Source of the DNA: Stackebrandtia endophytica
Lineage (GTDB): Bacteria; Actinomycetota; Actinomycetes; Mycobacteriales; Micromonosporaceae
Assembly (NCBI RefSeq): GCF_006716355.1
Contig: NZ_VFOW01000001.1
Span: 434,001 to 498,000 of the forward strand
DNA length: 64,000 nt
Direction of reading: 5' to 3'
The translations under genes and the position numbers were made by a program. Below, one piece after another: positions 1 to 51,863 of the stretch; positions within the stretch are counted from its first letter, which is position 1, and every line of letters begins with the position of its first letter. The notes beneath the pieces were generated by a model. That model worked only from the letters and a program-made list of their open reading frames with translations. It was not told where the DNA came from and did no database searches.

Positions 1-1054
1 ATTGGGCGATGCCGTTGGTTCGGGCCTCGGTCAACGAGTCCCCGTTGTAGGCGATCGCTCCGAGTTCGGCGGAGGCGGCTCCGGCGGTGTCGGCCACCAG
101 CTGATGCTTCCTCACCCAGTCGGCGGCGGAGTCCGCCTCGACCTGGTAGCCAGCGGCGGCCAGCGCCTGTCCGGCCAAGCCGGTGCTGTTGGTGTTGGCG
201 GCGGCGGTGGGTCCGGAACCACCGAACGAACCGTCACCGTTCTGAATGGACTTCAACCAGTCGGCGCCCTTGCGTGCCGCCGCCTCGGCGCCGTCGACGT
301 CGTCGAGTGCCGCGGCGGTGAACAACGCCTGCACCGCCATAGCGGTGGAATCGGGGTCCAGGACCGCCGCATCGCCCTGTTCGTCGCAGTCGCCGGTGAC
401 GACGCTGCCGCCGAAGGCGTAGGGGTACAACCGGAATCCGCCGCCCGAGCACTGCTGGTCGATCAGGAAGTCGACCGCGTTCTGCGGGACCCCGCCACTG
501 CGCGACAGTCCCAGGACCGCCAGGGACTGTCCGAAGGTGTTGCTGTTGTCGACCGACGGCGCCGCTACGAGGTCCTTGACCCGGCCGTCCTCCAATCCGG
601 CCTCAGGTCCGGCGATCAGGTCGATGGTCTCCTGTCGGAGGTCGTATTCACCGAACGCGGCGGGGTCGGAGTCGGTGATGACCGCCGCGTACAGCAGTTT
701 CGCGGTGGCACCGGCGACGCGTTGTCCGGGCTGGCCCCACGCGTCGTAGCTGTTGTAGTCGCGGACGTGAAGTTTCAGGCCGTCGGTGATGCGCTGCGCC
801 ACGTCGGGGGCGGCGCCGGTGGCCTCCAAGGCGATGAGTGCGTCGATGGTCAGGCCCCAGTCGGTACCCACCATTCCGGGCATTCCACCGGCGTCATCGA
901 TCTCGCCCGCGAGCCAGTCGGCAGCGGCGACCGCTTCGGCGGTGGGTTCATCGGCGGTGGCGACACCGGGCAACATGACGGCCGCAGCCAATACGGCGAT
1001 ACTGGCGCCGGCGGTGACCGACCACCGTCTGGCACCGGATCCAAGGGCACGCAA
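1..1054 (-). CDS. secreted prenyltransferase/transcobalamin-like repeat protein (C-terminus outside window)
   Basis: The minus-strand reading gives an uninterrupted protein of about 351 residues whose 3' end lies beyond the window edge. The TTG start at 1054 follows a GGAGGA ribosome binding site (1061-1066). The first 33 residues form a Sec signal peptide: an Arg-containing start, a hydrophobic core and an Ala-rich cleavage region. The rest is alpha-helical repeats of the prenyltransferase/squalene-oxidase type, with segments such as MPGMVGTDWGLTIDALIALE and DGSFGGSG. This alpha/alpha-barrel fold is shared with mammalian intrinsic factor and transcobalamin. A cobalamin riboswitch lies just upstream, so I infer a role in extracellular B12 capture rather than terpene chemistry. 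The part that could carry a DUF4430 domain or a surface anchor is outside the window. Confidence 0.82.
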   Translation of the reverse strand, partial: MRALGSGARRWSVTAGASIAVLAAAVMLPGVATADEPTAEAVAAADWLAGEIDDAGGMPGMVGTDWGLTIDALIALEATGAAPDVAQRITDGLKLHVRDYNSYDAWGQPGQRVAGATAKLLYAAVITDSDPAAFGEYDLRQETIDLIAGPEAGLEDGRVKDLVAAPSVDNSNTFGQSLAVLGLSRSGGVPQNAVDFLIDQQCSGGGFRLYPYAFGGSVVTGDCDEQGDAAVLDPDSTAMAVQALFTAAALDDVDGAEAAARKGADWLKSIQNGDGSFGGSGPTAAANTNSTGLAGQALAAAGYQVEADSAADWVRKHQLVADTAGAASAELGAIAYNGDSLTEARTNGIAQ

Positions 1055-1056
1055 AG

Positions 1057-1113
1057 GGGTTCCTCCGAAGGGGGCGGGCCGACGTCGAAACCCGCGGTAT
1101 CCCGGAAGAACCC
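1057..1113 (-). promoter_or_regulatory. Shine-Dalgarno-masking helix, likely riboswitch expression platform
   Basis: On the minus-strand RNA, GGGTTCTTCC (1113-1104) is complementary to GGAGGAACCC (1066-1057), ten pairs with one G-U wobble. The second arm contains the GGAGGA ribosome binding site of the downstream TTG start at 1054. Pairing would hide the site, which fits translational control by the upstream cobalamin riboswitch. The pairing is seen in the sequence. The mechanism is inferred. Confidence 0.6.
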
Positions 1114-1199
1114 TGGATGCGGGGAAAGCCCCGTGGGTTCGGTGAGGATGTCACCGGGCTTCAGACCGCAGACCATGGCGGGCAGAAGCAGTTCTTGGA

Positions 1200-1320
1200 A
1201 TTCAGGTCAGGCATTCCGGCTGTCAGCGTGGTGGCTGAATCACGGTTGCAGGTCAGCGCCGGATTCGCACCGGCTTCCCCTGAGGCTGTTCCTATTCAGT
1301 TGTGGTGTGGCTGTGATCGC
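1200..1320 (-). promoter_or_regulatory. cobalamin (B12) riboswitch aptamer
   Basis: Read on the minus strand, 1280-1241 contains the conserved aptamer core GGGGAAGCCGGTGCGAATCC followed by GGCGCTGACCTGCAACCGTG. The B12-box equivalent (AGCCGGAATGCCTGACC) follows at 1221-1205. These match the adenosylcobalamin riboswitch consensus in order and spacing. The outer P1 boundaries are approximate. It precedes the transcobalamin-like gene by about 150 bases and is expected to reduce its expression when B12 is plentiful. Confidence 0.9.
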
Positions 1321-1391: not shown

Positions 1392-1889
1392 TCATCCCGC
1401 CAGGACGTTGGCGACCATTCCGGACAGTCGTGTGCGCAGTCTCTCGATGCGTTCGGCTTCGCCGAGCGTGTTGACCGGTTGCACCCGGCGGGGTCGCTTC
1501 AACTGTCGTATGTAGGCGGAGCAGGACAGGTCACTGCAGAAGTAGTTGCCCACGCTGTCGCCCCGGCGGCCGCGCGTACCGGCTTTGATCGCCGTGAACA
1601 GGGTGACGCCGCCGGCGGAGTGCACCGTGTGGCAGAACTCGCACATGGACGAGCGCATCGCTCCGGCGGCGTTGCGGGCCGCGGCGATCCGAAACACCAG
1701 GCCGACCGGTCCGTCGGGCATCGGCGCGACCAGGTAGGCACGCTGCGGGGTCCGCGCGTTGCGCCAGGCGAGAAAGTCCAGATTCGCCCAGGTCAGGTCG
1801 GACAGGTCCGGCAACGGTATCGACGTGGCCTCACGCTTCGAACAGTTGATGAACGAGGTCTGCAGCTCAGTGGCGGTCAGCGGGTTCAT
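1392..1889 (-). CDS. FBP-domain (FusB/FBP-like treble-clef) zinc protein
   Basis: The 165-residue protein begins MNPLTATELQTSFINCSKRE, the usual opening of actinobacterial FBP (fibronectin-binding/FusB-like) domain proteins, so I place the start at 1889. An in-frame ATG at 1925 would add 12 residues. The C-terminal half has a treble-clef zinc finger with CEFCHTV and later FCSDLSC as the likely four cysteine ligands. Relatives of this domain bind elongation factor G and rescue ribosomes from fusidic acid, but most actinobacterial members are uncharacterised. The gene is divergent from the YbaB-like gene at 2036. Confidence 0.75.
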   Translation of the reverse strand: MNPLTATELQTSFINCSKREATSIPLPDLSDLTWANLDFLAWRNARTPQRAYLVAPMPDGPVGLVFRIAAARNAAGAMRSSMCEFCHTVHSAGGVTLFTAIKAGTRGRRGDSVGNYFCSDLSCSAYIRQLKRPRRVQPVNTLGEAERIERLRTRLSGMVANVLAG

Positions 1890-2035
1890 TCCCGCGACGG
1901 TAACCGCCGCGTGGGTGACTGTCATTCGGTTTTCGCCGATCCCGTTTGCGGATTCGCTGCGGACTTTTTGCAACCTTTCGGGCGCACGCTGACCTCGCAG
2001 CACCGTTTCAGACCTTCCAGCCGAAGGGGGCACAC

Positions 2036-5962: not shown

Positions 5963-8935
5963 ATGGGCACAACGGAATCCGGGCTCGTCGTCACCATGCT
6001 CGGACCGGTCGTACTGCGGCACGATCGGCGACGCATCACGGCGGGCACGCCGAAACAAGCCTGTGTGCTGGCGGTGCTGGCCTGGAATGCCGGGTCGGCG
6101 GTACCGGCGGAGACGCTGATCGACTACGTCTGGGGGCAGGACCCGCCGAATACCGCGCGCAAGACGTTGGCCGGGTACGTCACCCGACTGCGACAGTCGT
6201 TCAGCGGCACCGAGGTGACGATCTCGTGCCGATCCGGGGCCTACACATTGGAGATCGACCGTGACGCCGTCGACGTGCATCGCTTCCGACGGCTGGCGGC
6301 CGACGGGCGGACCCGATCGAACCCGGCCGAGGCCTTTGCACTGCAACGCGAAGCCGTCAACCTGTGGCACGGCACCCCGCTGACGGGCCTGGTCGGCCAT
6401 TGGGCCGACCGCGTCCGCACCGGACTCGAACAGGAACACATCGAGGTGTGGACGGACCTGTTCAACAGTGAGTTCGCCTGCGGAAACGAGCGGCGCTGCT
6501 TGAGCAAACTGTCGGAATGGGTTTACCATCGCGCCCCGATGGCCCAGGAACTGGTCGGCTTGTACATGCTGGGCATGTATCGCACCGGCAAGCCCGCCGA
6601 GGCACTGGCGTGCTTCCGTCGGACCCGGCAATTGCTGCGCACCGAGTTGGGCATCGAACCGGGGCCGGAACTGACCGAACTGCACCGGCGAATCCTTCGT
6701 GACGACCCGGATTTGATGATCCGGCGGCCGGTCGATCATGATGATCAGCCGGTCCCGCGTCAGCTTCCCGCCCCACCGCACGCGTTCTGCGGACGAGGTG
6801 CCGAGATCACCCGACTGACACGTCAACTCGACGTCGGGACCGCCGTCCTCGCGGTCGTCGGAGTCGGCGGGATCGGCAAGACCGCGTTGGCGGTGCAGTG
6901 GGCACACCACATCGCCGACCGCTTCGGCGACGGCCAGTTGTTCTACGATCTTCGCGGTTTCTCCCCCGGCGAGGCGGTGCCTCCGGGGGTCGCGCTGGCC
7001 GGGTTCCTTCGGGCGCTGGGTGTGGAGCCCGATCGCATTCCCACCGACACCGCTGAGCGCGCCGCGCTGTATCGATCACTGCTGGCTCACCGGCGGGTCC
7101 TCATCGTGTGCGACAACGTCCGGGACGCCGCCCAACTGCGGCCGTTGATACCGGGTAACCCACGCTGCCAGGTCATCGCGACCAGTCGAGGCGACCTTCA
7201 TGGACTGGCCACCACGCACGACTATCACGCGGTGCCGCTCGACGTGTTGCCCGACGACGAGTCCGTGATGTTGCTTCAACGGTTGACGACCGACTCGGGC
7301 GCGGCGACCACCGAGTTGGCCGAACTGACGGGACTGTGTGGCGGCCTACCGTTGGCCCTGCGGTTGGCGGCGAGCCAGCTGTCGGCACATAGTGGACCGA
7401 CGCCGGCCGAGCTCACCGAACTGCTCGGTGAGGACTCCCGACTGTCCGCTCTCGATGACGCCGATGATCCGCACCTGGGACTATTGGCGACCTTCGATTC
7501 GTCATATCGGGCGTTGGACGCCGATGCCCGGCACATGTTCCAGCTGTTCGGTGCGCACCCGGCGTCCACTCCCGACACCCGGTCGCTGGCCGCCATGGCG
7601 GGACTGAGCCCCGCGAAGACCGCCGCCCGATTGCGCCGGCTCGGCGCGATGCACCTGGTTCATCGCGCTGACGACGACCGGTGGAGCGCTCACGACCTGA
7701 TCCGCGAGTTCGCCGTACGGCGGTCCGACGACCTCGACACCGGGGAACGTGCCGAGGCATTGGATCGTTGCTACGACTGGTATCTGGCCGCCGTTCACCG
7801 CGCCGGCGCCGTAGCCTTCGACCTGCCCGCTCCGACCTCGACGATCACCACGTTGCCCACGGTGGACGATCGCGCCGCCGCGTTGACCTGGCTCGGCGAC
7901 CGAGTCCGGGCGATCGTCGCCGTCATCGGGCACACCCATCAAGCGGGCGCACCGATCCACACCGTTCGACTCGCCGGCGCCATCGGCAGGTATCTGAACT
8001 TCAGTCAACGTATCGAGGAGCTACGAACCGTCCTGGACATGGGATTGGCGGCCGCTCACCGACTGGACGACGACACGTACCGAGTCGACATGCTGCGTCA
8101 CCTCGGGCACCTGCACTTCATCACCGGCGACATGACCGCCGCGGCCCGGCACTTCGGTGACGCGGTGGAGGGCACCCCGCCGGACGATCCCATGCGGACC
8201 GTCTTCCTACAGAACCTCGCTCAAGCCCGATTCGCACTCGGGCACTTCTCGGCGGCCCGTGACCACGCCGTCGAGGCCATCGAATTGCTGGGCGACGACG
8301 GCCGTCGACCCAATCTGGCCTATTCCATCGCCACACTGGGACACATCGCATTCGTCCACAACGATCTCATCGCCGCCGAGAAACACTTCAGCACCGCACT
8401 GGACATCGTGCGCGCCAACGACTTCCGCTTCGAGGTCGGCGACCTGCTGACAAACCTCGCCAAGATCAATCTGAAACTCGGTCGCTGTGACGAGGCCGCG
8501 GAACAACTGTCGCAGGCACTGGAACACGCCACCGCCGAACAGGACCCGGTCAGCACCGCGTTCGTCCACAGTTTCATCGGTCGAACCCACACCGGGCGGG
8601 GTGACCACGAGCAAGCCGTGACCAGCCACCAACGAGCGCAGGCGCTGGCTCAGGACATTCACCAGACCGGTACCCGGTTGGAGATTCTGCACAACGCGGG
8701 GGTCTCCCACCTTCACGCCGGACAGCCGGCGATCGCCGGTGAACTACACCTGGAGGCGCTCGATCTCGCCGAACGGGGCCACGACCGATTCGAGGCGGCA
8801 CGGTCCCACCACGGTCTCGCCCGATGCCTGACACTTATGGAGGACCATGAACGCGCCCGCCATCACCGGGAACGCGCCACCGCGATCTACCGAGACCTCG
8901 GCATCACCGCCCCGGGCGCGGATGAGGACGCCTGA
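5963..8935 (+). CDS. AfsR/SARP-family transcriptional regulator with NB-ARC and TPR domains
   Basis: The protein has 990 residues. The N-terminus is a winged-helix OmpR-like DNA-binding domain (residues ~10-90, with LIDYVWGQDPPN and TLAGYVTRLRQ). A BTAD domain follows (~95-245, ending ELGIEPGPELTELHRRIL). Then comes an NB-ARC ATPase with P-loop VVGVGGIGKTALAVQW near 298 and GLPLALRLAASQL. The C-terminal third is TPR repeats (ALGHFSAARDHAVEAIELLG and others). AfsR-type proteins activate secondary metabolism or development genes, and their ATPase/TPR parts gate activity. The gene follows the WXG cluster on the same strand and may control it. No antibiotic cluster is present nearby. Confidence 0.92.
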   Translation: MGTTESGLVVTMLGPVVLRHDRRRITAGTPKQACVLAVLAWNAGSAVPAETLIDYVWGQDPPNTARKTLAGYVTRLRQSFSGTEVTISCRSGAYTLEIDRDAVDVHRFRRLAADGRTRSNPAEAFALQREAVNLWHGTPLTGLVGHWADRVRTGLEQEHIEVWTDLFNSEFACGNERRCLSKLSEWVYHRAPMAQELVGLYMLGMYRTGKPAEALACFRRTRQLLRTELGIEPGPELTELHRRILRDDPDLMIRRPVDHDDQPVPRQLPAPPHAFCGRGAEITRLTRQLDVGTAVLAVVGVGGIGKTALAVQWAHHIADRFGDGQLFYDLRGFSPGEAVPPGVALAGFLRALGVEPDRIPTDTAERAALYRSLLAHRRVLIVCDNVRDAAQLRPLIPGNPRCQVIATSRGDLHGLATTHDYHAVPLDVLPDDESVMLLQRLTTDSGAATTELAELTGLCGGLPLALRLAASQLSAHSGPTPAELTELLGEDSRLSALDDADDPHLGLLATFDSSYRALDADARHMFQLFGAHPASTPDTRSLAAMAGLSPAKTAARLRRLGAMHLVHRADDDRWSAHDLIREFAVRRSDDLDTGERAEALDRCYDWYLAAVHRAGAVAFDLPAPTSTITTLPTVDDRAAALTWLGDRVRAIVAVIGHTHQAGAPIHTVRLAGAIGRYLNFSQRIEELRTVLDMGLAAAHRLDDDTYRVDMLRHLGHLHFITGDMTAAARHFGDAVEGTPPDDPMRTVFLQNLAQARFALGHFSAARDHAVEAIELLGDDGRRPNLAYSIATLGHIAFVHNDLIAAEKHFSTALDIVRANDFRFEVGDLLTNLAKINLKLGRCDEAAEQLSQALEHATAEQDPVSTAFVHSFIGRTHTGRGDHEQAVTSHQRAQALAQDIHQTGTRLEILHNAGVSHLHAGQPAIAGELHLEALDLAERGHDRFEAARSHHGLARCLTLMEDHERARHHRERATAIYRDLGITAPGADEDA

Positions 8936-51788: not shown

Positions 51789-51863
51789 TCGGGTTGGCGG
51801 GATTTGAACCCACGACCTCCACACCCCCAGTGTGGCGCCCTAACCAAACTAGGCCACAACCCG
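51789..51863 (-). tRNA. tRNA-Pro (anticodon GGG)
   Basis: On the minus strand the acceptor arms CGGGTTG and CAACCCG pair. The anticodon stem CCACA/TGTGG holds the loop CTGGGGG, giving anticodon GGG. The T arm is GTGGGTTCAAATCCCGC and the discriminator is A. No CCA is encoded, as is usual in actinobacteria. The length is 75 bases. Confidence 0.95.

Follow-up and report, generated by a model that had tools for sequence, protein, structure and literature searches.

A riboswitch-led operon of Stackebrandtia endophytica that probably encodes a split transcobalamin-like receptor feeding an ECF cobalamin importer

Among the extracellular proteins that operate in a B12 context, the vertebrate carriers intrinsic factor, transcobalamin and haptocorrin are the obvious point of reference; in transcobalamin, B12 is sandwiched between a toroid and a beta domain (PMC1796856). 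For bacteria, Burroughs et al. proposed in 2007 that surface proteins which combine a toroid with an SLBB domain, and which are encoded beside CbiO- and CbiQ-like genes, act as B12 scavengers (PMC1796856). As described there, these SLBB/DUF4430 proteins carry the toroid and the SLBB domain in either order, have signal peptides and, in some cases, Gram-positive anchors; their operons contain genes similar to CbiO and CbiQ, at times together with a further SLBB gene; and their hosts are usually without key genes of B12 synthesis. The clade is given from low-GC Gram-positives, planctomycetes and euryarchaea, and a search of the available text of that paper yields no riboswitch, no Streptomyces and a single Mycobacterium, among the abbreviations of Figure 2 (PMC1796856).

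On the side of import, the ECF transporter ECF-CbrT of Lactobacillus has B12 as a substrate and binds cobalamin with the S component alone, at a Kd of about 9 nM, so that an ECF importer, judging from this case, needs no surface receptor (PMC5997447). Riboswitch-led ECF modules, likewise located behind cobalamin aptamers, were described in acI actinobacteria by Kang et al. in 2017 (PMC5301498), and in neither case do the sections of these papers drawn on here mention surface alpha or beta proteins of the kind considered below (PMC5997447, PMC5301498). Surface capture of B12 is likewise the task of lipoproteins in gut Bacteroides (PMC6143338). Finally, NCBIfam holds two actinobacterial families, SCO2321 and SCO2322, that are known there by locus tag and whose names carry no function. 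The Bacteroides lipoproteins are different proteins, in a different cell envelope, from the system described here; to our knowledge, ECF importers are usually described as having no extracellular receptor.

The general idea of a B12-scavenging surface toroid dates from 2007 and was developed mainly for other phyla, whereas its actinobacterial form, with two genes behind a riboswitch, was not found in the open-licence PMC literature, as far as its accessible text goes, and neither was a function for the SCO2321 and SCO2322 families. The libraries scanned contain no named function for this form either.

The DNA analysed here (the window, 64,000 nucleotides) spans positions 434001-498000 of the single-contig, 99.98% complete, 5.66 Mb genome of Stackebrandtia endophytica. 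The operon, all on the minus strand, runs in the order aptamer, alpha, beta, EcfT, double EcfA, EcfS (Table 1). The alpha reading frame is cut by the edge of the window, and beta and the ECF genes lie to its left. An earlier note made from the window alone had placed the rest of the operon outside; the leftward extension that it proposed as a check brought to light the LPVTG end of alpha, a DUF4430-like beta protein (recognised by profile-profile comparison and structure, not by a Pfam scan) and an ECF transporter. We consider it highly probable that this operon encodes a split receptor, similar to intrinsic factor and transcobalamin, which is controlled by the riboswitch and feeds an ECF cobalamin importer. 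Unlike in the vertebrate carriers, the two halves are encoded by separate genes, bear wall and membrane anchors, and adjoin an ECF importer and a riboswitch.

Table 1. Positions of the features discussed; plain numbers refer to the window, and L004 is the left-extended locus, where position equals window position + 10000
Feature	Position	Strand	Basis or remark
Cobalamin riboswitch aptamer	1201..1302	minus	R1 match 1302-1181, Rfam match (RF01689) 1296-1201
Conserved aptamer core	1241..1280	minus	sequence and alignment to R1 and RF01689
B12 box	1205..1223	minus	sequence and alignment to R1 and RF01689
Predicted hairpin pairing the Shine-Dalgarno; possible expression platform	1057..1113	minus	fold, and 11 chosen relatives by eye
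Shine-Dalgarno GGAGG, 7 nt upstream of the TTG start	1062..1066	minus	sequence
Alpha gene, codons 1-351 of 447	1..1054 (L004:9711-11054)	minus	signal peptide, alpha/alpha toroid; remainder with LPVTG outside the window
Beta, 305 residues	L004:8797-9714	minus	start overlaps alpha stop by 4 nt
EcfS	L004:5170-6060	minus	PF12822 ECF_trnsprt 33.5 of 30.7 bits; start overlaps ATPase end by 4 nt
Second LPVTG toroid protein, apparently monocistronic	L006:7959-9343 (C1:5167958-5169342)	plus	own aptamer 75.2 bits (R1)
BtuFCD-like ABC importer behind third aptamer	L005:8496-11408 (C1:3470495-3473407)	plus	below NCBIfam cut-offs

The earlier note had called a minus-strand cobalamin aptamer in the window; its place, core and B12 box stood, whereas a match at the Rfam gathering score was not obtained. 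Specifically, the gathering-score scan of the whole window returned a tRNA and no cobalamin match at or above the cut-off, and at the aptamer itself RF00174 attains 27.3 of 31.5 bits (E 1.1e-4, whole genome) and RF01689 (AdoCbl-II) 32.8 of 36.5 bits (E 6.4e-6, search of 501 bases), both below gathering. Since the earlier note had named the lack of a match above the Rfam threshold as one of the outcomes that would refute it, and this outcome applies to the letter, an independent model, R1, was built from 14 aptamers that precede homologous genes in other genomes, with the window left out; 11 of these 14 exceed the RF00174 cut-off, and two-sided changes that keep the pair occur at 5 of the 17 consensus pairs. 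R1 scores 57.0 bits on the window (E 3.1e-14), the second-best place in the window reaching 13.3 bits, and its search of the whole genome yields three matches, one of which is the window aptamer. The aptamer possesses the core, the B12 box and the pairing common to accepted cobalamin riboswitches; judged by sequence and structure it is real, and its switching is a prediction.

Between base 1201 and the alpha start codon, a TTG at 1054, there are about 146 nt, within which the Shine-Dalgarno would be paired in a predicted hairpin. The segment 1040-1120 (minus) folds with -36.1 kcal/mol (z -1.94), a stability that 8 of 200 shuffled sequences match. Among 11 chosen relatives inspected by eye, a similar pairing is visible in L142, L148 and L158 and is unclear or absent in the others. 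Such a hairpin would suit control of translation, which, given that similar pairing can be seen in just three of the 11, is put forward as a suggestion.

The alpha protein has a Sec-type signal at its N-terminus (by eye) and, at its C-terminus, LPVTG followed by a membrane stretch and basic residues; two sortase matches exceed their cut-offs in the same genome. Its prenyltransferase-type repeats give a weak match to Pfam PF00432 (20.9 of 26.5 bits, E 2.6e-4), and its AlphaFold model (pLDDT 81.4), with helices from 39 to 369, is an alpha/alpha toroid, a domain type shared with intrinsic factor and transcobalamin, in agreement with the note's description of a signal-peptide protein with such repeats. 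The further claim, which links the window protein specifically to these carriers, draws its support from the beta neighbour and the context and not from alpha by itself: a Foldseek search with the alpha model places terpene cyclases first and intrinsic factor (3kq4_A) at rank 36 (E 6.9e-4), the best matches in both sequence and fold are squalene-hopene and drimenyl cyclases, and in the PDB sequence search neither transcobalamin nor intrinsic factor occurs in the matches listed (60 of 71). Taken alone, alpha is less specific than beta, and the window protein is the toroid half only.

The beta protein has an N-terminal signal and a C-terminal membrane stretch (both by eye). Its AlphaFold model (pLDDT 86.5) begins with two strands and a helix, followed by a strand pair and two further strands, and thus shows a beta-grasp domain with a hairpin after the helix, and a strand pair at this place is described as the mark of the transcobalamin-like clade (PMC1796856). 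In a Foldseek search of this model against 350,542 PDB chains, ranks 1-14 are all occupied by transcobalamin (probability 0.85-1.00, best E 0.012), the 36 other matches listed having a probability of 0.18 or less; the E-values are modest, none of them being at or below 0.001. The TM score against the beta domain of transcobalamin (5np4) is 0.40 when normalised to the query and 0.56 when normalised to the target. At the level of profiles, hhalign relates the beta profile to a DUF4430 profile made from 18 proteins that match Pfam DUF4430, with 93.7%, E 1.9e-7 and a score of 48.9; in the controls, 100 column shuffles give at most 1.41% and a score of at most 17.7, and the EcfS profile gives 0.05%. 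The window beta is too diverged for the Pfam DUF4430 model (PF14478), which matches neither it nor anything else in its genome and, among the scanned ORFs of 10 relatives, gives one weak match (L047, 16.1 of 23.8 bits). The relation is a remote one, as the beta profile finds with HMMER none of 20 DUF4430 loci; a PDB sequence search with this profile returned no matches. With the modelled fold and the profile comparison in hand, beta is taken as a diverged DUF4430, or transcobalamin C-terminal, domain, and as the probable missing half of the receptor. Of the sets used in these comparisons, A1 has 22 of 26 beta rows, A3 adds to these 17 of 32 new rows, A4 combines 10 of 35 new rows with the 30 alpha rows from A2, A5 has 14 of 17 EcfS matches and A7 has 18 of 20 DUF4430 loci.

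The T, A and S components of an ECF transporter are encoded together behind beta. EcfT exceeds the cut-off of Pfam CbiQ, the cobalt transport family (29.2 of 25 bits), and EcfA is one protein with two ABC ATPase stretches (ABC_tran). A PDB sequence search with the EcfS profile found no match to solved S components, so that, in distinction from ECF-CbrT, no tie of this EcfS to CbrT can be drawn. Orf6 (L004:4577-5437) was rejected as a member of the operon, its matches in relatives overlapping EcfS out of frame. Its part up to 5137 (L004:4577-5137, minus), a small membrane-like protein after EcfS, has no NCBIfam match, and no homologue of it was seen in the operons of relatives.

How widespread is this arrangement? 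Alpha occurs in 23 of 150 genomes of the order, the present one included. Of 396 genomes in the phylum, the SCO2322 family is matched (E 0.001) by 54 and the DUF4430 family by 76. To describe the gene order, the best 80 of 192 relatives, fetched by beta, were taken as named loci, the closest beta homologue among them being that of Stackebrandtia albiflava (81% identity). EcfT, EcfA and EcfS are present in all 62 named loci with full flanks and alpha in 61; the strict order beta-EcfT-EcfA-EcfS is kept in 57, and among the five others L134 deviates solely by a split EcfA match. An aptamer of at least 50 bits (R1) was found in 77 of the 80, and in the remaining three (L120, L169, L171) the first beta is about 550 nt or less away from a contig end. 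Because the named loci were chosen by beta, these counts support the link between beta, aptamer and ECF genes and not the frequency of the system. The 119 aptamers of at least 50 bits, taken from 154 listed (the 35 weaker ones, of 37.1 bits or less, were left out), precede a same-strand alpha or beta domain within 507 nt in 118 cases, with a median of 195, the distance being taken to where the domain match begins, not to the gene start. As L167 and L168 show overlapping parts of a single contig, their two aptamers enter this count twice. In relatives, aptamers above the Rfam threshold stand at the same place as that of the window.

Of the 23 primary alpha loci (L004, L008-L029), with strand and position read from tables, 19 have a cobalamin-clan match at E 0.01 or better, two have a weak one (L014, 0.061; L026, 0.021), and none was seen in L024, where alpha is near the contig end, or in L029. 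Alpha adjoins beta in 23 of 30 loci of the phylum with short flanks, and 6 of 161 alpha-bearing ORFs are beta-alpha fusions, which support a joint function of the two proteins. In these six, beta always comes first; a single chain with alpha followed by beta, as in intrinsic factor and transcobalamin, was not found. Around the 20 classical DUF4430 loci, examined with short flanks, an EcfT-like match lies near 10 and an EcfA-like match near 5 others, although the EcfA profile could pick up ABC ATPases of other kinds as well. In five relatives (L011, L012, L013, L016 and L019), two divergent toroid genes stand back to back, each with its own cobalamin aptamer.

The window alpha and beta match the SCO2321 and SCO2322 families (E 5.1e-24 and 1.3e-6) far below the cut-offs, with 84.9 of 300 and 28.8 of 85 bits, and thus are not members by score. 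In the examined members over the cut-off the order of the alpha segments is permuted: in the 11 relatives that exceed the SCO2322_fam cut-off (L057-L067), wherever the segments were found, profile positions 131-313 precede 3-138, as if the toroid of these proteins were circularly permuted.

As to the need for imported B12, CobN (PF02514) has no match in the genome and no CobI exceeds its cut-off, the best CobI candidate fitting the uroporphyrinogen-III synthase and methyltransferase models better, albeit below their cut-offs too. MetH, the methylmalonyl-CoA mutase C-terminal domain and the lysine 5,6-aminomutase beta subunit are over their cut-offs. So is CobB, which implies that some corrin genes may exist and that partial synthesis or salvage is possible. 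Of the remaining two R1 aptamers of the genome, one stands ahead of another toroid protein with LPVTG and one ahead of an ABC importer of the BtuFCD-like kind (Table 1).

From these data, the following sequence of events can be envisaged. At low cellular cobalamin, the leader would allow expression of alpha and beta. Alpha, a toroid, would be secreted and anchored to the wall by its LPVTG end; beta, with its transcobalamin-type beta-grasp domain, would be secreted and anchored in the membrane. Together they would form two jaws that clamp a corrinoid at the cell surface, much as intrinsic factor and transcobalamin do with two domains of a single chain; we infer both the jaws and the ligand from the way in which toroid and beta domain sandwich B12 in transcobalamin (PMC1796856). 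The captured corrinoid would then be handed over to EcfS, acting with EcfT and the double EcfA, and, once imported, would serve MetH and the mutases. The comparison with the mammalian B12-carrier system, made in the earlier note, is supported, cobalamin binding being predicted here; alpha, however, resembles a protein anchored to the wall to capture its ligand for uptake more than a circulating carrier.

The nature of the cargo deserves separate consideration. The operon could import, instead of complete cobalamin, a precursor or part of it, such as cobinamide, alpha-ribazole/dimethylbenzimidazole or cobalt, bound by alpha and beta. Cobalamin riboswitches also control transporters of precursors and of cobalt (PMC3766115), ECF-CbrT takes cobinamide too (PMC5997447), EcfT matches the cobalt transport family CbiQ, a CobB match is present, and, with a BtuFCD-like system already provided with its own aptamer, a second system might take another corrinoid. 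Nevertheless, we consider this reading unlikely: the closest folds of beta are those of the cobalamin-binding transcobalamin, free cobalt would be of little use with no CobN match and no CobI over the cut-off, and a clamp made of toroid and beta domain would suit a whole corrinoid.

Still less probable, in our view, is an incidental association of the riboswitch with alpha, the latter being an enzyme akin to terpene cyclases or some generic toroid of the cell surface. The leading place of squalene-hopene and drimenyl cyclases among the matches of alpha, together with the alignment of its DPDST motif with DVDDT of squalene-hopene cyclase, speaks for such an identity; against it, the catalytic DxDD is absent from the window protein (the string occurs in 3 of 40 alpha family rows), alpha has a signal peptide and LPVTG, beta and ECF genes accompany it in nearly all full-flank relatives, and aptamers lie upstream across genera. 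Terpene cyclase identity was rejected for the lack of DxDD, the secretion and the neighbouring genes; the terpene or hopanoid surroundings that the earlier note had named as an argument against itself did not appear, the neighbours not being terpene enzymes. Equally improbable is that the aptamer match arose by chance, or that the riboswitch has decayed, and that the operon is regulated otherwise: this would account for scores below gathering with both Rfam models, but hardly for 57.0 bits with a model that excludes the window, so far above the second-best place, nor for the above-threshold aptamers at the same position in relatives; the aptamer of the closest named relative (L113) reaches 73.6 bits.

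With the split receptor as the preferred reading, one can ask how far its two halves act together. That a wall-anchored alpha and a separately membrane-anchored beta close on one cobalamin and pass it across the wall to a dedicated EcfS is quite possible, and we propose it tentatively. If true, this relay would represent an ECF importer equipped with an extracellular receptor of its own, and the operon in any case raises the question whether surface receptors can serve importers of the ECF type. The proposed function is a testable one for the SCO2321 and SCO2322 families, and with it the bacterial transcobalamin-like proteins would reach to Streptomyces, Micromonospora, Amycolatopsis and their relatives, there split in two and controlled by a B12 riboswitch.

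Several other features of the window may be mentioned. Directly upstream of the riboswitch and on the same strand, a gene at 1392-2033 (minus) encodes an FBP C-terminal treble-clef zinc-finger domain (PF16571). A large ORF at 5963-8935 (plus) resembles, by eye, a regulator of the SARP/AfsR type, and the tRNA gene of the Rfam gathering scan lies at 51789-51863 (minus).
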